Shown here one piece after another: positions 8,732-63,554 of a DNA stretch of 64,000 nt. The position numbers and the translations under genes are program-made. This DNA comes from Beroe ovata (lineage: Eukaryota; Ctenophora; Nuda; Beroida; Beroidae). How positions within the stretch are numbered: the stretch's first letter is position 1; each line of letters opens with the position of its first letter. The stretch covers positions 89,839 through 153,838 of the forward strand of contig CAMPET010000133.1 in the NCBI GenBank assembly GCA_946803715.1. The letters run 5' to 3'. The notes below the pieces were generated by a model, which saw only the letters and a program-made list of their open reading frames with translations, was not told where the DNA came from and did no database searches.

Positions 8732-9130
8732 ATCAACAATGAAAAATAGATTTTATTTCAATTTCATATCCAATTTAGAAATTTGCTAAATCTCTTTGCT
8801 CACATGATTATTTGTGCTTGCCAGTTGACAAACTTCAATCCAGTAATTGCAAATTTCAACATGCTGATTAGATCAACAATGGATTGAATTTGAGATTACA
8901 ATTGTAGACCACATCAGAATTATTCAATTATCATCCTGTTACCTATATGGTTTTTTGGTCACATAATTTTGAGTAACATGTTATCCAATTGCATTCTCAT
9001 ACTATACAGTCAATTGCCTAATCCCTAAAATATAACACACAGGTGAGAACAGGTAGATACAATCAAACTGACGAAATGAATTTCTGCCGTTAGCGCTTCC
9101 ATTATATCAACCTAGCATTTTACTTTTTGA

Positions 9131-9171
9131 TTTTAAACTTATCAACACTACTTATTACAATCAAATTTGAG
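9131..9171 (+). promoter_or_regulatory. 41-nt block shared by both LINE 5' regions
   Basis: TTTTAAACTTATCAACACTA starts the block and CAATCAAATTTGAG ends it. The same block is at 59952-59996 with one 4-nt insertion. Sequence on either side is unrelated. It sits about 190 nt 5' of the ORF1 ATG here and about 135 nt 5' of it in the second LINE. It could be a 5' UTR or internal promoter remnant. Confidence 0.5.
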
Positions 9172-9354
9172 TAGGTACATGGCGAACAAGAACACCCCCA
9201 AAGGGGAGTAATGTCATGCGAATGTTAATGGAGTGTTGTGACGAGTAAAGGAGGTGAAGCCAGCTCAACTACCCAAGTTTCCTCATCTTCCGACTCGGTA
9301 GGCAGGACCATCACTACAAAGTGTGAGTTCAATACTTTCAAACTTGAATCAAAC

Positions 9355-11016
9355 ATGGATGAACAGAATTGTCTCAAATGTGCATCCCTAACTGCTCAAT
9401 GCCTTGAACTTAAAGAAGAAGTTAAGAGGCTTAACAGGAAAATAGAACATTTACTAGACTCATTGTCACACGGTACAATTGAATCTAGCTGTCAAGCAGC
9501 GCCTAATGTTTTATCCCAGCTAACCCAGACAGATTCTTACCCTGATGCAGAACATTTTTCCTCAAGCAAAACCCAACCAGATATCATGTCTGTGAACCCT
9601 ACAAGCACAGCCCTCGAGGCATCTGTTCTATCATCAAATGGGCAGGAGGGAGTTCTGTTGGACCTTTTCCTCAATTCAGGTGCTGTTCACTCAAATATCT
9701 ATGCTGTTCCACTGGTGAAACTGCCATTCGTTCATGTTCCAGACCAACCATTCTCCCAATTTGATCATAAGATGCTAGATGCTGAACTCAAGTTTGATAC
9801 TCAATTGAGTAGTAGGCTACTTTCATATTTTGGTGAGGTCAATTACTCCTACAGCAACATAACTCATGTTGCAAGAGAGTTCCCAACAGGTGATAATTAT
9901 CTCAATCAGATACGCAATCATCTGAGCCAAACCCTTCCTGACTTCAAATATAATAGTGTACTAATAACAAAGTATAGGAATGGTTCAGACCACATAGCAT
10001 TCCACTCAGACAATGAGCCAAATATTGTTGCAAACTCAGATATAGTTACCATATCTCTGGGAGAGAGACGCACATTGAAATTCAGGAGTAAGACCAGAAC
10101 TGATGACTATCCTGAGCAATCACTTGAAGTTGTGCATGGAGATGTATTTGTGATGAGCAGGGACTCACAGAATTACTTTGAACATGCTGTTGCAAATGAC
10201 TCCACTTCATTACCGAGATACAGCTTAACGTTTAGACTGCTTGAACCTTCATCAGAAACAGCAGTCAATGCCCCACCTGCCATTTCTTCAGCTGTCAATC
10301 CCCCACCAGCTGTTTATCCATCCGTCGAGGGTTATCAATCTTGTCACTTACCAGATGTAAGCTCAACATCTAATTCCAAAGAAATAACTTTATACATTGG
10401 TGACAGCATGTTTAGAAACCTTAAACAGGATAAAATGTCATCAACCACTCAGAAAGCAATTGTTCTAGCATATCCAGGTGCTACTATATCTGGTGTTCTG
10501 AACAAGATAAAGTCAGATCCTAACTTCTTGAATATTGACCCCCACAACATAGGCAAAATCTTTTTGTTTTGTGGTGCAAATGATGTAGATAAGATCCTGG
10601 AAATACCATTTTCTAGGAACTCTGACTTCATTGATGCTAGCACCCACCCACTAACCGACTCATCTGCTGACAGATCCTTGCAACAGCGCAAAACAGACCT
10701 CGCAAACCTAGTCAACTTTTTGCAGTCATGGTCACTCAATGCATCATTGAACTACATCAACATTTTACCCCGGGAAAGTTATGTGAGAAACTTCGCTATC
10801 AATCAGTTGAACAACCATATTGAACATCTCAGCAATATTTGCCCTCATTTGACTTATGTTTCAACAGAACTAAACCGAAACCTTTTTGCCTCTAAATCCG
10901 GTTTTAGGAAGAATGTTTTCTTCTCTGACAAGGGTTTAGATAATGTCCATCTTAACCAGATAGGAACTGCTAGGCTCGCAAAACACCTGAAGTACCTTTC
11001 CCACTGCAATTCCTGA
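9355..11016 (+). CDS. LINE ORF1: coiled coil + AlkB dioxygenase + SGNH hydrolase
   Basis: The open frame runs from a stop at 9226, and the first in-frame ATG is at 9355, giving 553 aa (numbered from there). Residues 1-40: CxxC and a short coiled coil (ECVK-like heptads around LKEEVKRLNRKIEHLL). Residues about 105-300: a 2-oxoglutarate/Fe(II) oxygenase of the AlkB family, with HSD (H217, D219), then TISLGERRTLKFR, then GDVFVMS, the distal ligand H277 (YFEHAV), and R288...R294 (RYSLTFR). All expected metal and 2OG ligands are present. A proline-rich linker follows. Residues about 345-550: an SGNH/GDSL hydrolase with GDS (S351), GAND (N409) and DNVH (D529, H532). An esterase in CR1 ORF1 is known, and AlkB demethylates alkylated nucleic acid. 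AlkB in a LINE ORF1 is the odd part. Confidence 0.85.
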   Translation: MDEQNCLKCASLTAQCLELKEEVKRLNRKIEHLLDSLSHGTIESSCQAAPNVLSQLTQTDSYPDAEHFSSSKTQPDIMSVNPTSTALEASVLSSNGQEGVLLDLFLNSGAVHSNIYAVPLVKLPFVHVPDQPFSQFDHKMLDAELKFDTQLSSRLLSYFGEVNYSYSNITHVAREFPTGDNYLNQIRNHLSQTLPDFKYNSVLITKYRNGSDHIAFHSDNEPNIVANSDIVTISLGERRTLKFRSKTRTDDYPEQSLEVVHGDVFVMSRDSQNYFEHAVANDSTSLPRYSLTFRLLEPSSETAVNAPPAISSAVNPPPAVYPSVEGYQSCHLPDVSSTSNSKEITLYIGDSMFRNLKQDKMSSTTQKAIVLAYPGATISGVLNKIKSDPNFLNIDPHNIGKIFLFCGANDVDKILEIPFSRNSDFIDASTHPLTDSSADRSLQQRKTDLANLVNFLQSWSLNASLNYINILPRESYVRNFAINQLNNHIEHLSNICPHLTYVSTELNRNLFASKSGFRKNVFFSDKGLDNVHLNQIGTARLAKHLKYLSHCNS

Positions 11017-11136: not shown

Positions 11137-12025
11137 ATGGTGTGCCAAAATTTTCATAATATGACAATTGGTCATTGCAATATACAAGGAGGGCTAATAG
11201 GCCTATCCAAGTCAACCCAAATTTCGCAGCTAGTGAAACAGCACAATCTTGACATTCTCTCTATCAATGAAACAAACTTAAACGATAGCATTGCAACTGA
11301 ATCTCTAAACATCCCCATTAGTTACTCCTTCAAGCGTATGGATCGGGGAATCGGTAACAGAGGAGGGTGTGGGCTGATAATAAGTGATAGAGTTGCTTAC
11401 ATCCCCATCAACTTCAAAACTAATATAAGTAATATCGAGGCTAAATGGATTAAGCTTAAGAACTGCAATATATATCTCTGTGGCTTCTATAGATCAAGTG
11501 GGTACTGCAAATTAGACACCTTTATTGACTACTTTACAGAATGTATGAACAAATTGAAGGGCAAAAAGGTTATTTGGATCGGAGATATTAACGTTGATCA
11601 GAATAAGATAAGTAGTACAGACTATAAGAAGTTGGACTCAACTCTTAAATCATTCAATATGGTACAAACAATACAGAACTACACTAGGATAGCTAAAAAA
11701 GGCACCAAATTTAGTTTTACCACAATAGATGTCACCATTACAAATTGCTATTCCGACTTTGTTGACTCTTCTGTCTTACCTGAACGTATAGGAGATCACT
11801 ATCCAATTAAGCTTCAGTTGCAATTTAAAGTAGAATTACCACCTAAATTTGAAAAAATAACTATTCGTGACTATAGCAGCAATAATGTTAAAGCATATCA
11901 GACGTATCTAGCTCATACTGATTTCTCGTATCTTCTAAGAAGCAGGAGTGTTGATGATGCCATAAACTTTTTCGATACCACACTCACTAAATATCATGAC
12001 CACTACTTTCCATTGAAAACCATAA
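11137..12025 (+). CDS. LINE ORF2, APE endonuclease domain only (cut at N)
   Basis: Starts 120 nt after the ORF1 stop with a good ATG. The apurinic-like endonuclease motifs are in order: GHCNIQGG, DILSINETNL (catalytic Glu), RGGCGLIIS, GDINVD (Asp-Asn), SFTTIDVTI, and GDHYPIKL (Asp-His). The frame continues to YFPLKTI, the usual segment before the RT domain, and then meets the N at 12026. No reverse transcriptase motif is present, so this is a partial ORF2 of about 296 aa. Confidence 0.85.
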
Positions 12026-12026
12026 A
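12026..12026. other. Single-N contig join
   Basis: A lone N interrupts ORF2 of the LINE. Sequence on the right (GAGGAATAGTCAG...) is not LINE coding sequence. It probably marks an unresolved repeat boundary. Confidence 0.8.
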
Positions 12027-12134
12027 NGAGGAATAGTCAGTTCATTTCCCACAGGAAAATGTTAGGAAAGGATGGAAAATACTGAATCCTGTGACCCAAA
12101 AATTTGATCTGTAGTTTCTGCTTTCAACACAGTC

Positions 12135-13470
12135 ATGAGAATTGAGTCTGATGAGGAGGAATGCCCTACCCTGTTTCAAAGGTAAAAGCGGTATTCACAT
12201 AGCAGAACAATAAGATAACTTCTGTAAACCAAGTAAAAATATTTCCTATCACCAATCATGATACTTAACTTCTAATCAAACTTCTAACTTAGTTTCCTTA
12301 AAGCCTGATAGCGTCTTTCACAGGTTCACAGGTATGATAATTTCCTTGCTTACAGGTTTACAAGTCAAGTTGCTGTTTACTCGATGTGGATGGTTCTTGT
12401 GTCCCTATTTCCAGTTCTTGGATGGAAGTCACTGAAATGGGTAAAGCCAAACAATGCAGTTGTCAAACATAGACTTGGCAGCAAGCCATCTGTGAGATAT
12501 TCTGGAGTTGAAATTGTTCTGCCTGTCATAGGTTAGTGTCCATGAATTCATTGAACAGTGATTTGTCAATAACTCCCAGTGATCCCCATGGGAATTAAAA
12601 AGATATCCATTTTTCAGATAAAATTGTTGAAGTCAATCTCAGTCCCCAAAGCTTGGTACTTCCATCATCTGTTTATTACTCAAAAGACAGAATCCCAATT
12701 GATTCTGGTCTTATAGTAGAATATCAAGTGAAAGATCCTGCACTATGTTAGTTCAAAATGTCTTCTACTTGGCTATCTTGGTTTTGGTATTATTACAAAG
12801 TTTTTTACTGTGATGAAGTGAACTAATGCCATTATTGTATCACAACCTAATTTCAGGTGTATGTGAATTACAGGATGTCACAGAAAGTTTACAATTCGCT
12901 GCAAGAACTGCTTTACCAAGAGCTTTTTCACAAAATTCATCGCAGATGATTGTATGTTCTAAGAAACTGTTGGAATATGCAGTTGTGAAAAATATAAGTA
13001 ATGCTGTGCGCATCTGGGGAATTGAGATCATATCTGCAGAATTAGCACCATTCAAATTTGCTGCAATACCTGATTCAGAGCATGATGAAAGTCCAGTTTC
13101 AAAAGCCATCAATTTCATCCAGAAGATAGCTGGACATAATCCTCTCCCATCAAAAGATAAGTTGTCTATTGATGAAATTATGTCATGTTTAAAGCCAATG
13201 CTCACCAAGAAAGTTTGTAAAGCAGTTAACGCTGTGATTGTGCTGAAACTTGTTGGTACAAATGGAGGCATGTGCCTTATCGACTTTAAGAATTGCTCTA
13301 TGGTAAAGAATCCAAAAAACTTCCATTGTGACCTGACTGTAGAAATGACTGTTGATACCTTCTTTGATATGTTCGATCTGAGAGACAATATTATTGATCT
13401 ATACAAGTCTGGAAAGGTCGCTATAGATGGTGATTTGAGTGTGGCTCAAAGACTGCAGCATATGTTTTGA
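12135..13470 (+). CDS. STOML1: Stomatin-like protein 1 (SPFH + SCP2)
   Basis: Four exons: 12135-12181, 12356-12531, 12618-12746 and 12857-13470. Phases join cleanly (FQ-R-FTSQ; VKDPALC-VCELQD). The N-terminus is acidic (MRIESDEEECP). A single hydrophobic hairpin-like segment follows (VAVYSMWMVLVSLFPVLGW), then the SPFH/prohibitin core in exons 2-4 (ending at AVRIWGIEIISAEL). The C-terminal half of exon 4 is an SCP2 sterol-carrier fold (ENIIDLYKSGKVAIDGDLSV-like ending at QRLQHMF). SPFH plus SCP2 is specific to STOML1/UNC-24, a membrane protein of late endosomes that tunes acid-sensing and stomatin-type channels. The short 5' exon directly follows a contig join, so upstream exons cannot be excluded. 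Confidence 0.88.
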
Positions 13471-59951: not shown

Positions 59952-60129
59952 TTTTAAACTTATCAACACTACCTACTTATTACAATCAAATTTGAGGAAC
60001 CCCAGCCAAAATTGTGATAAAAGTATAAAGTTCTGCTGTATTGTTTGGAGCTCACAGAGAAAGCACTTTTGCTAAATCTGCTAATTGACAAGGAACAAAT
60101 TTGGTAGATTCTGGGGTTCTTCAAATAGG

Positions 60130-61590
60130 ATGGTACTCTTTCAGGACCCAGACCCCAATGATTCTAATGACAAGACCCCATCAACCATTGATAAGAATGG
60201 GGGCAAGGAAAAGCCACAAGGTGTCATGGACAGTTGTGATGCAAATACTTTGAAGTCTAAACCCAGTTTTGATATTCCAAAGGATCTCAACACTCCTCCC
60301 CCTCCTTACTTATGCTCTGCAAGGAAGGTACGACCACTGAATACCCCTCCCCCAAGTAAGCATTTATTTGACAATGGTACAACACTTCTCAGTGATTTTG
60401 GAGTTTGTCTAGCATGCGGTGATGAAAATGCATTTGATAAAAGTGTCTCTTGCCTTCTTTGCAACAACAGCTTCCATGCTATTTGCAAATCTGACAATGG
60501 GAGCTCCCAGAACATCCTGTGTAACAAAACCTTCCTCGAACAGTTCACAAAACGTACTGAGAAGAACGACACATTCACTGGTTCTTTCTGTTTTGTATGT
60601 GACCCCTGCCTAACTAGTCACGAACAAAGACAGGCTGCTTCTGTGAAAGCGCATGTTCAATCACTTGAAAGAAAAGTTGAATCCATGGAATCTAATATAT
60701 CTGAAATCAAGAGTCTACTAACTGCCCAACAGAACCAGTCAGTACCTAACGAACCAAGCAGTGAAGTTGCTCCTTTGGTCAGAAACAGTGTTTGGGGTGA
60801 TTTGGCTGGCCTGCAGAGGGTAAAGTCTAGCATCCCTGTAATTGTTAAACATGGGGCTGCTGGAGCCAATGTGCCTGATACAGAGCTAGAGAAACTGATA
60901 ACTGACAATAAAATCCACGTGGAGAAAAATTACAAAAACAAGTCAGGTGAAAATGTTCTGGTTGTATCATCACAAGAAGGCAGAGAAAAACTCACCACAA
61001 AGCTCCAAGAGTCATATCCAGATCACAACATCTTCCATCCCCCTGAACGGCTACCTACTATTTCAGTTGCCAACCTCATAGATAACATTCCACCTGACCA
61101 CTTGAAGAACAAGATTCTGTCCTTGCATGAGGAAATAGCCTCACTTGTGGATCAAGGATCCGTGTTTGATGTCCTCTATATCAGACCTCAAAGGCAAGGC
61201 AAGAGGTTCCAAGCGTGTATTCGAGTTAGTAATGAGATCAGGAAATTCATTCAGTGCCTTGGTGACAGACTCTACATTGGCATGTACAGTTGTAATGTGT
61301 ATGATCACTTCTATATAAAGAGATGCAACAACTGCCAGAAATACCATCATTATCAGGACAAATGTAAAGCTGTAAAACCAACTTGTGCAAAATGTGCTGG
61401 AGATCATAATACTGCTGACTGCACCAGGTGCCACAGCACTAATTTTGTTCCTACCTGCATCAACTGTAAACATGAAAAAAGTTCTTTCACCCACACCCAT
61501 GAAGCAAGTTCTCTTGAATGTCCAACTTACAAAGCCGCACAGGACAAACTGAAGAACTCAATCACATTCTACAAGTCAAAAAACATGTAA
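60130..61590 (+). CDS. LINE ORF1: PHD finger + zinc knuckles
   Basis: 486 aa from the ATG at 60130; the frame is open 45 nt further upstream without an ATG. A proline-rich start is followed by a PHD-type finger (CLACG, CLLC, FHAIC, CFVCDPC) at about residues 95-160. A coiled coil follows (VQSLERKVESMESNISEIKSL-like), then two RRM-like alpha/beta segments (VEKNYKNKSGENVLVVSS; DVLYIRPQRQGKRFQACIRV). Zinc knuckles come last: CNNCQKYHHYQDKC, CAKCAGDHNTADC and CINC...ECP. This is a nucleic-acid-binding ORF1 of the kind found in CR1/I/jockey-type LINEs; a PHD in CR1 ORF1 is known. Confidence 0.85.
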   Translation: MVLFQDPDPNDSNDKTPSTIDKNGGKEKPQGVMDSCDANTLKSKPSFDIPKDLNTPPPPYLCSARKVRPLNTPPPSKHLFDNGTTLLSDFGVCLACGDENAFDKSVSCLLCNNSFHAICKSDNGSSQNILCNKTFLEQFTKRTEKNDTFTGSFCFVCDPCLTSHEQRQAASVKAHVQSLERKVESMESNISEIKSLLTAQQNQSVPNEPSSEVAPLVRNSVWGDLAGLQRVKSSIPVIVKHGAAGANVPDTELEKLITDNKIHVEKNYKNKSGENVLVVSSQEGREKLTTKLQESYPDHNIFHPPERLPTISVANLIDNIPPDHLKNKILSLHEEIASLVDQGSVFDVLYIRPQRQGKRFQACIRVSNEIRKFIQCLGDRLYIGMYSCNVYDHFYIKRCNNCQKYHHYQDKCKAVKPTCAKCAGDHNTADCTRCHSTNFVPTCINCKHEKSSFTHTHEASSLECPTYKAAQDKLKNSITFYKSKNM

Positions 61591-63378
61591 TGGTAAATCA
61601 CATGCCTGGGAAGGATCTCACTCTCACTTGTTTGTCATGGAATGTAAGATCACTCAATAACAAGGTCGAATCTATTATGGACTACATAACAGATCAAGAC
61701 ATATCCATTGTTTTCATTCAGGAGACCTGGTTGAGGGAATTGACTAGTCATACCACAGCTATTATCAAGACACATGGTTACAATGTTCATCACTATCATC
61801 GCTCTGATGTCACAGGAGGTGGTGTTGCAATCTTATCTAAATCTTTCATCAAAGTGGTGAGAGTGCATGTTTCTAATGAACCTTCTTTTGAGTCAGTATG
61901 TGTGAAAATAGTTCTTCCAAATCACAAGTCGTATCTTGCAGCATGCATCTACAGAACTGGTCCTATAAGCTCATTCTCAGAAGATTTTGATGAATTTCTA
62001 GCAAATTTATATTCAAAATCAGACAAACTGCTTATATGTGGGGACTTCAACATACACATGGATGAGATAACAAAGGCTCAGAAAGAACTGTCGCATGTAT
62101 ACTCATCTTATGGACTCAGTCAGTTATGTAAGGATGCCACCCACAGATCTGGTCACATGCTTGACTTAGTAGTAGCATCACCCAAAGTCATCAAGAATGA
62201 TGTAGTCAGTGTTCTCCCCCTATCCTCAGACTATCCCACCTGTGATCACTCAAGAATACTCTTTACATTGAATGCCAAAGGAGTGCCTTCTGAAAATAAG
62301 AAAAGGATAACATTCAGAAACATTCAGAATATAACCCAAGAAGAGTTTAGGGCTGATCTCTCGGACACCCTAACATCAATTTCAAGTGATCAGTCTTCTT
62401 TTGGAAACAAGATGTCCAGGTATAACAATGAGGTCACTCAAGTTCTTGACAAGCATGCTCCTAAACTGAGTAAGTGGATAAGAGACGAACCAGATTCAAA
62501 GTGGTTTGATTCCTCTTACAAAGCTGCAAGGGCAAAACGCAGGAAAGCAGAAAAAGAATGGAAAAAAACTCTCTCTGATGATGACAGGTACTACTTTGAG
62601 TATCTTAGAACATTCTGCAATGATTTGGCGCATGCCAAAAAGAAGGAGTTTTTCAAAGAACACTTTGTAAAGTACAACTACTCTCAGAAAAGCTTGTTTC
62701 AATTTGTTGACACTTTTCTTGATCAAGACAAATCTCTAGTTCTACCATCAAATGAAAACATCCAGGAAGTTGTTAATGAATTCAACCAGTTTTTCACAAA
62801 TAAAATAACAAAAATCAGACAGTCTTTCAAACAACTGCAAGAGATAAGTCAGGACCAATCTTCCACCACTTATCCAGCTATCAGTGAGATGAGTCAATTT
62901 GAGTTGACAACTGAAGACGAAATCAGAGAAATCCTGAGTGACACTAATATCAAATCCTGTGATCTTGATCCCTTACCAGCCAGCCTCACAAACGATAACA
63001 AAGATCTTCTTGTACCTACGTTATGCGATCTGGTAAATGCTTCTCTTACCTGTGGCTCTATGGAAGGACTAAAATCAGCCCATCTTACACCCTTGTTGAA
63101 AGGCAGTTCATTGGACCCAAATAAGATGAAAAACTATAGACCCGTTTCTAACCTTGCATTTGTCGGTAAAATCATAGAAAAGGTTGTCCTCATGCGACTC
63201 AATGCACACTTGACAATAAACAACCTCAACATTGACCATCAGTCTGCGTACAAGAAAAAGTTCAGCACAGAAACTCTCCTGATCCGCATTGTAAATGATC
63301 TCCTCATTGCATCTGATGAGAACAAGGCTACTGTAGTTATGCTTTTGGACTTATCTGCTGCTTTCGACACAGTGGACC
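61590..63378 (+). CDS. LINE ORF2: APE endonuclease + partial reverse transcriptase
   Basis: The natural start is the ATG at 61590-61592, whose A is the last base of the ORF1 stop TAA; an ATG 72 nt upstream in the same frame is inside ORF1. Endonuclease motifs: SWNVRSLNNK, VFIQETWL, GGGVAILSK, YRTGP, CGDFNIH, GHMLDLVV and CDHSRI. After a basic linker the RT begins: LTPLLKGSSLDPNKMKNYRP, HQSAYKKKFSTETLL and motif A VVMLLDLSAAFDTVD. The frame ends at the N at 63379. The catalytic YADD and the 3' end are missing. Confidence 0.88.
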
Positions 63379-63554
63379 NATCCAATTGAGCTACATGTGG
63401 TTCCAGTAGTTATTTGTGATATCGAACTGATGTATGTGACGAACTTTTTGAGTCCATCGACCTTTGGGGTGCCACCAGAGAGCCACCAAAGCAGCATTTT
63501 ACCGCATGCGCATTAAGTCCGCTTATAAACGGGTTTCTTTGAGTCACACAAGCT
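63379..63554. other. Single-N join and unassigned sequence
   Basis: The N at 63379 breaks the LINE. The next 175 bp have no LINE coding match and lead into the satellite. Confidence 0.6.

Follow-up and report, generated by a model that had tools for sequence, protein, structure and literature searches.

The 64,000-nt stretch of the Beroe ovata genome analysed here (contig CAMPET010000133.1, positions 89,839 to 153,838 of the forward strand; hereinafter designated the window) contains the 5′ portion of what is almost certainly a long interspersed element (LINE) with a genuine AlkB-bearing first open reading frame (ORF1). The window contig is denoted C133, other C-numbers are contigs of the same genome, and P-numbers are database proteins. 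All parts of the element lie on the + strand. Its 5′ end is a 42-bp leader (9130..9171), a candidate trans-spliced leader exon shared with unrelated sequences, followed by a 5′ untranslated stretch (9172..9354) whose first part is alignable with C99. ORF1 (9355..11016; 553 aa) extends from an ATG at 9355 to a stop codon at 11014-11016 within a stop-to-stop frame opening at 9229. Behind it lies the 5′ part of ORF2 (11137..12026), which starts with an ATG at 11137 and, in agreement with the original prediction, encodes an apurinic/apyrimidinic (AP)-like endonuclease (EN; PF03372, E 3.6e-7, above the cut-off). The window copy breaks at a single N (12027), and the endonuclease frame takes its final codons and its stop from this join; the copy contains no reverse transcriptase (RT), only the endonuclease ahead of the join, and its 3′ end is hidden behind it.

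ORF1 comprises an N-terminal CxxC motif with a coiled coil (residues 1-40; 9355..9474), an AlkB-type 2-oxoglutarate (2OG)-Fe(II) dioxygenase domain (residues 120-298; 9712..10248) and a C-terminal SGNH/GDSL hydrolase domain (residues 341-553; 10375..11013). The C6xxC9 motif overlaps a helix modelled at residues 7-38, and each cysteine is retained in 44 of the 45 aligned rows having a letter at the site. PF13532 spans residues 161-294 (E 6.5e-21), and the features defining the AlkB family, an HxD...H iron triad and R-x5-R, are supplied by H217-S-D219 and H277 (codons 10003-10005, 10009-10011 and 10183-10185) and by the 2OG arginines of R288YSLTFR294 (R288, 10216-10218; R294, 10234-10236). The SGNH motifs are G-D-S351 (S351, 10405-10407), G-A-N409-D (N409, 10579-10581) and D529-N-V-H532 (D529, 10939-10941; H532, 10948-10950), with G375 as the glycine. 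Checking of the codons thus found every motif that had been named for this frame: the CxxC and coiled coil, the full AlkB signature and the SGNH triad. The profile searches proposed along with those motifs recovered the AlkB domain, and the SGNH part of the window copy itself had no match by Pfam or phmmer; Pfam GDSL_2 is detected at E <= 0.01 in 15 of the 56 aligned ORF1 rows, and the predicted fold of the C-terminal part of the window ORF1 is SGNH. A coiled coil combined with an SGNH domain containing S, G, N, D and H is the configuration of esterase-type ORF1s.

Both active sites are strongly conserved. Scoring of the 7,997 candidates with the most shared words recovered at least 54 database relatives of the window ORF1, and the ORF1 alignment of 56 rows consists of 53 of 54 of these together with the window, C99 and C127, the distant P0054 being omitted. 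PF13532 is detected in all 56 rows, and H217, D219, E221, H277, R288, R294 and S351 are invariant (56/56) at identities down to 32%; N409 is identical in 54/54 rows, as are D529 and H532 in the 51/51 rows reaching them. In a second lineage (C244 and Mnemiopsis; hereinafter designated the PHD lineage; 97 rows), the iron ligands are the same in 97/97 rows and so are the 2OG arginines, bar one R in one row.

To gauge selection, the window, C99 and C127 copies were compared pairwise, giving three pairs. Synonymous sites are saturated, the proportion of synonymous differences (pS) being 0.83-0.91 in AlkB and SGNH, so that only the proportions of synonymous and nonsynonymous differences are given in place of the true dN/dS that had been proposed as a check. 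For nonsynonymous differences (pN), the proportion in AlkB ranges over 0.23-0.36 and that in SGNH over 0.24-0.37; the linkers are looser, the first at 0.40-0.51 and the one separating AlkB from SGNH at 0.54-0.70 (this last range resting on 23-32 codons). This suggests that the two enzymatic domains are under similar constraint. Between the closely related C86 and C414, the AlkB dN of 0.018 and dS of 0.068 come from just 8 changes each, an insufficient number for a conclusion; the rest of the ORF gives dN 0.024 and dS 0.027, misaligned end included.

The link to a reverse transcriptase is provided by other contigs. C105 matches the window over 2,166 bp with 1 mismatch and runs on into an open 985-aa EN+RT frame (L009:5340-8294). 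Because C133 and C105 each have a single N at one end of this overlap, they may represent either separate copies or a single insertion that the assembly has divided; C105 also has short ATTCA repeats at another single N. On C99, frames of 609 aa (an ORF1 54% identical to that of the window) and 1,002 aa follow one another. RVT_1 is matched at 2e-32 (C105) and 6e-35 (C99), and Exo_endo_phos at 3.5e-6 and 1.6e-6, respectively, so that an AP-like endonuclease and a reverse transcriptase share one downstream ORF on both contigs, the window having the endonuclease only. C127 carries an ORF1 44% identical to that of the window plus an endonuclease, then an N run. ORF1 lies upstream of ORF2 on the same strand in the window, C105, C99 and C127, and further RT pieces 60-92% identical to C99 occur on C345, C248, C100, C106 and C82. 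Relatives of the AlkB-SGNH ORF1 were also found in environmental sequences and in the ctenophore Mnemiopsis, where gene models P0293 and P0299 run from AlkB-SGNH into EN-RT. The LINE originally proposed from the window is thereby borne out.

PF13532 matches 18 places in the genome at a threshold of E 0.001, 16 of them above the cut-off, and some matches are two pieces of one locus. C12 encodes what we read as an ALKBH3-like host protein, the C36 frame has a methyltransferase domain and is ALKBH8-like, C64, C259 and C105:217402 hold further AlkB frames, and C181 and C420 are AlkB pieces at contig ends. A protein search identified a 737-aa frame on C244 with a PHD-like finger, coiled coil, AlkB and SGNH; a fragment downstream of it, which Pfam leaves unassigned, aligns with Mnemiopsis endonuclease sequences over 106-138 residues at 50-58% identity. 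Within this lineage Pfam reports PHD above the cut-off in P0206, below it in P0203 and P0191, and not for P0213 and P0057 themselves. C86 and C414, 94% identical over 1,381 bp, combine AlkB, a proline-rich linker and SGNH; the frame behind C86 stops at an N run in a stretch which, read by eye, resembles the C6 endonuclease start and is without a Pfam match. On C6 itself, AlkB (1.1e-15) and GDSL_2 (1.5e-11), both above the cut-off, precede a frame with an endonuclease match slightly below it (E 2.7e-4). Many other AlkB-bearing LINE-type ORF1s exist, where a lack of other copies would have spoken against the element.

In the C86 ORF1 frame (L018:4491-5400), the middle part of AlkB is present twice around two single Ns and may be an assembly duplicate. 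By eye, the ORF2-side frames of C86 (L018:6497-7162) and C6 (L019:3218-4420) have hydrophobic stretches before the endonuclease start. On the 11-kb contig C500 (L017:1441-4204, L058), a long frame lacking any Pfam match is followed by separate ORFs for SGNH and for AlkB, and the C500 AlkB clusters with cellular ALKBH3, not with the AlkBs of the window lineage.

Five control LINEs without AlkB were picked from the genome RT search. C110 and C107 have zinc-knuckle ORF1s (Pfam above cut-off), the zinc-rich ORF1 of C79 gives a weak PHD-like match below the cut-off (E 0.012), the C29 ORF1 looks similar by eye, and no ORF1 was seen for C226, whose upstream region contains N runs. At E 1e-3, tblastn with the AlkB-SGNH ORF1s finds nothing in any of the five. 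A sixth lies in the window itself (59952-63378), where a single N at 63379 ends the element; it has a zinc-rich ORF1 (60085-61590) with a weak PHD-like match, and its ORF2, from 61518, encodes an endonuclease and a partial RT. All tblastn matches of the AlkB-SGNH ORF1s in the window fall within 9355-11013. AlkB thus appears tied to certain ORF1 classes and not to all LINEs of this genome.

By both sequence and fold, the closest solved relatives of the AlkB domain are ALKBH3 and ABH2, with fold alignments at 26-28% identity. In the PDB, the family profile matches ALKBH3 (7e-25) and E. coli AlkB (1.6e-7), and chains of ALKBH5 and FTO are absent from its matches at E 0.01; these two are also missing from the top 50 fold matches of the window model, which by itself excludes nothing. 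Sequence and predicted fold point to an ALKBH2/ALKBH3 type in preference to the N6-methyladenosine (m6A) erasers. In a tree of 39 hand-picked AlkB rows (167 columns kept; C86, C6 and ALKBH8 are long branches), the window lineage falls outside the group holding human ALKBH2/3. One side of a split supported at 98/94 contains the window lineage, the PHD lineage, C181, C420, P0054 and host ALKBH8; the other contains ALKBH2/3, viral AlkBs, C12, C500 and the C86/C6 pair. Rows labelled window lineage need 3 changes on this tree and those of the PHD lineage 2, C181 and C420 lying outside the former and P0054 inside the latter, and we draw no firm conclusion on single versus repeated AlkB capture. The EN/RT tree (18 rows, covering lineages of this genome, Mnemiopsis and unnamed database sequences, with no named LINE clades) supports the window lineage at 96/100 and the PHD lineage at 100/100. 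Their EN/RT sequences are ~27% identical, similar to the identity of each with AlkB-less LINEs; C226, on a long branch, falls next to the PHD lineage at 81/84, and the deepest split has weak support (64/61). A viral origin was considered and set aside: seven IMG/VR loci match the ORF1 profile, all in the AlkB part only, and the five of these seven with a readable AlkB frame form their own clade (L039 and L043, whose frames read poorly through the domain, were omitted from the AlkB tree).

The window LINE shares its leader with LINEs that have no AlkB and with unrelated sequences. A genome search with the final 21 bases of the leader gives 237 hits at <=1 mismatch, and the reversed control gives 0. 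Upstream of AlkB frames it is kept at 41/42 bases in C99 and C127, 38/42 in C420 and 37/42 in C414, with divergence beyond it; among AlkB-less LINEs, C110 and C79 have 41/42 and C29 30/42, in the 3′ part only. A second copy in the window (59952-59996), with 4 extra bases, heads the AlkB-less LINE. Since 41/42 bases are kept in C99 and C127 although their ORF1s are only 54% and 44% identical to that of the window, the leader resembles a trans-spliced leader exon that is acquired anew in every round of retrotransposition. Head-to-head inverted leader pairs with like sequence on both arms occur on L050, L051 and L055 (C26, C28 and C41), where the 21-base ends are 48-53 bp apart and the leaders nearly touch.

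Around the element, a rhodopsin-type receptor frame (7tm_1, E 2e-20) adjoins it and points to an animal host, and a host frame with an SCP2 domain lies beyond the join (12817-13470). The GC content of the window is 41.8%.

LINE ORF1 proteins (ORF1p) are RNA-coating partners of elements that reverse-transcribe their own RNA. An ALKBH2/3-like domain placed in ORF1p with its catalytic residues kept, together with this need for reverse transcription, suggests a cis-acting cleaner of template or cDNA. The best overall explanation, to which we give an even chance, is a two-ORF LINE whose ORF1 AlkB domain demethylates RT-blocking marks and whose SGNH domain contacts membrane. ORF1p would coat the element RNA in cis; AlkB would strip Watson-Crick-face methyls (1-methyladenosine (m1A), 3-methylcytidine (m3C) and perhaps 1-methylguanosine (m1G)) that would stop the element's own RT, acting on the RNA template and possibly also on the first cDNA strand; and SGNH would tether the particle to membranes, the role that has been put forward for the esterase of zebrafish ZfL2-1. 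The AlkB domain is very probably catalytically active, and that its main substrate is an RT-blocking lesion on the element's own nucleic acid falls slightly short of an even chance. An RRM or zinc knuckle is not found at E 0.01 in any of the 56 ORF1s, so AlkB may be the nucleic-acid-contacting part. E. coli AlkB prefers m1A and m3C and relieves RT-blocking modifications (PMC7968990), and the ZfL2-1 esterase is lipid-binding with an isoelectric point (pI) of 10.8 (PMC3905857). The SGNH domain here is likewise basic (median pI 9.3, n=48) and, by analogy, is probably a membrane- or lipid-contacting esterase.

Several observations weigh against this explanation. AlkB is evidently not needed by LINEs generally, the six others examined in the same genome showing none. 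With a median pI of 6.0 (n=54), the AlkB domain falls short of being basic, which disfavours strong general RNA binding. In the motif N-x-Y, which we take to be the AlkB 2OG contact, N is replaced by T in 48/56 rows of the window lineage and kept in 4, with Y in 52 and F in 4; in the PHD lineage N is present in 97/97. At the site presumed, from AlkB motifs, to correspond to E. coli D135, which steers substrate choice, the window lineage has N in 46/56 rows and D in 8 (residues seen: N, D, S, Y), and the PHD lineage N in 36, D in 32 and R in 18 of 97 (86/97 together), besides S, K, C and Q, so specificity could have shifted. Finally, a frame of >1,000 aa on C235 (L037) has GDSL_2 above the cut-off and a sub-cut-off AlkB-like piece without HxD (YESY), the sole exception noted when loss of metal ligands was looked for. 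C235 is possibly a catalytically dead relative.

More broadly, AlkB-SGNH may define a separate ancient LINE ORF1 class, spread over at least 2 RT lineages of ctenophores and other animals, with a third probable, and serving as a cis template-cleaning dealkylase with a substrate range tuned at the D135-like site; we hold this to be less likely than not. We regard it as unlikely that the domain is an m6A-type RNA eraser altering the epitranscriptome of the element's or the host's RNAs and so evading host control, a role suggested earlier for the orchid Gypsy AlkB and for plant RNA viruses. The Gypsy-encoded AlkB does demethylate m6A in vitro (PMC9289625), and D135I gives E. coli AlkB m6A activity, D135S and D135R shifting it towards m1G (PMC7968990). 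The D135-like site, variable as it is here, is never I in either lineage, however, E221 is invariant (56/56), and the family profile matches ALKBH3/ALKBH2 without an ALKBH5 or FTO chain. Still less likely is action on DNA, by repair of the first cDNA strand or nicked target, or by removal of N6-methyladenine (N6-mA) from element copies or target chromatin against silencing. Such a role is kept in play by the raised N6-mA on young mouse L1s after loss of host Alkbh1 (PMC4982230), but our data give no sign of DNA preference, and ORF1 proteins are generally ribonucleoprotein components. That the AlkB fold is retained only as a nucleic-acid-binding or scaffolding module is less probable again: the C235 ORF, which lost HxD and retains its SGNH domain, would fit, whereas the near-complete invariance of iron ligands and 2OG arginines in both lineages would not. 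An artefact, whether a host AlkB gene (or its retrocopy) that landed next to part of a LINE or a chimera made by the assembly, could draw on the join at 12027 and the C12 gene; it has a negligible probability and is rejected on the strength of independent copies with invariant ligands, given the identical ORF1-ORF2 order on C99 and C127, the database relatives, the similar Mnemiopsis fusions and an identity of just 28% for the C12 protein.

As far as searched, AlkB-SGNH is a real, conserved and new ORF1 architecture, and RNA or DNA demethylation would be its AlkB function. The original remark that no described LINE with this ORF1 was known agrees with full-text searches of a PMC collection, Repbase, subscription papers and preprints lying outside their scope: among the papers listed on AlkB/2OG-FeII and retrotransposons, only that on orchid Gypsy elements (PMC9289625) has, judging by title and abstract, an AlkB-carrying retrotransposon, AlkB appears only as host ALKBH genes in the available text of PMC4982230 and PMC8141815, and a survey covering 448 ORF1s of the Jockey superfamily (PMC4120745) uses neither the word AlkB nor the word dioxygenase in its main text. 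ORF1 proteins are the least understood part of LINEs. If true, a catalytic demethylase in ORF1 would suggest that RNA/DNA methylation or alkylation damage really hinders retrotransposition, a natural parallel to laboratory AlkB treatment of RNA ahead of reverse transcription, and that some jumping genes may come equipped to clean or unmask the genetic message they encode.

Close to the window ORF1 among known proteins is the esterase-type (type IV) ORF1 of CR1/L2 LINEs such as ZfL2-1, which shares the coiled coil, the C-terminal SGNH with S/G/N/D/H and the lack of a structural RNA-binding domain. In chordates, cnidarians and sponges, esterases of this kind have been reported from CR1, RTEX and Penelope elements (PMC3905857). 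The window ORF1 differs in having AlkB between coiled coil and SGNH. Like the PHD-bearing ORF1s of CR1/L2 LINEs, the PHD lineage opens with a PHD-like zinc finger and coiled coil, but continues with AlkB and SGNH in place of an RRM/zinc knuckle. Human ALKBH2/ALKBH3 and E. coli AlkB have the same fold, HxD...H and R-x5-R, whereas the ORF1 AlkB is fused to a coiled coil and SGNH and carried by a mobile element. Some plant RNA virus replicases carry AlkB domains, another case of a genetic parasite with its own AlkB, in a replicase without reverse transcription. If our explanation is true, AlkB-carrying genetic parasites extend from RNA viruses and one plant long terminal repeat (LTR) lineage to animal LINEs. 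That plant lineage, the Ty3/Gypsy elements of the orchid Phalaenopsis, likewise encodes an AlkB-family demethylase, in LTR elements, as a separate ORF and near plant RNA demethylases with m6A activity (PMC9289625); here, by contrast, the element is a LINE, and the AlkB domain is fused within ORF1, ALKBH2/3-like and present in several lineages.
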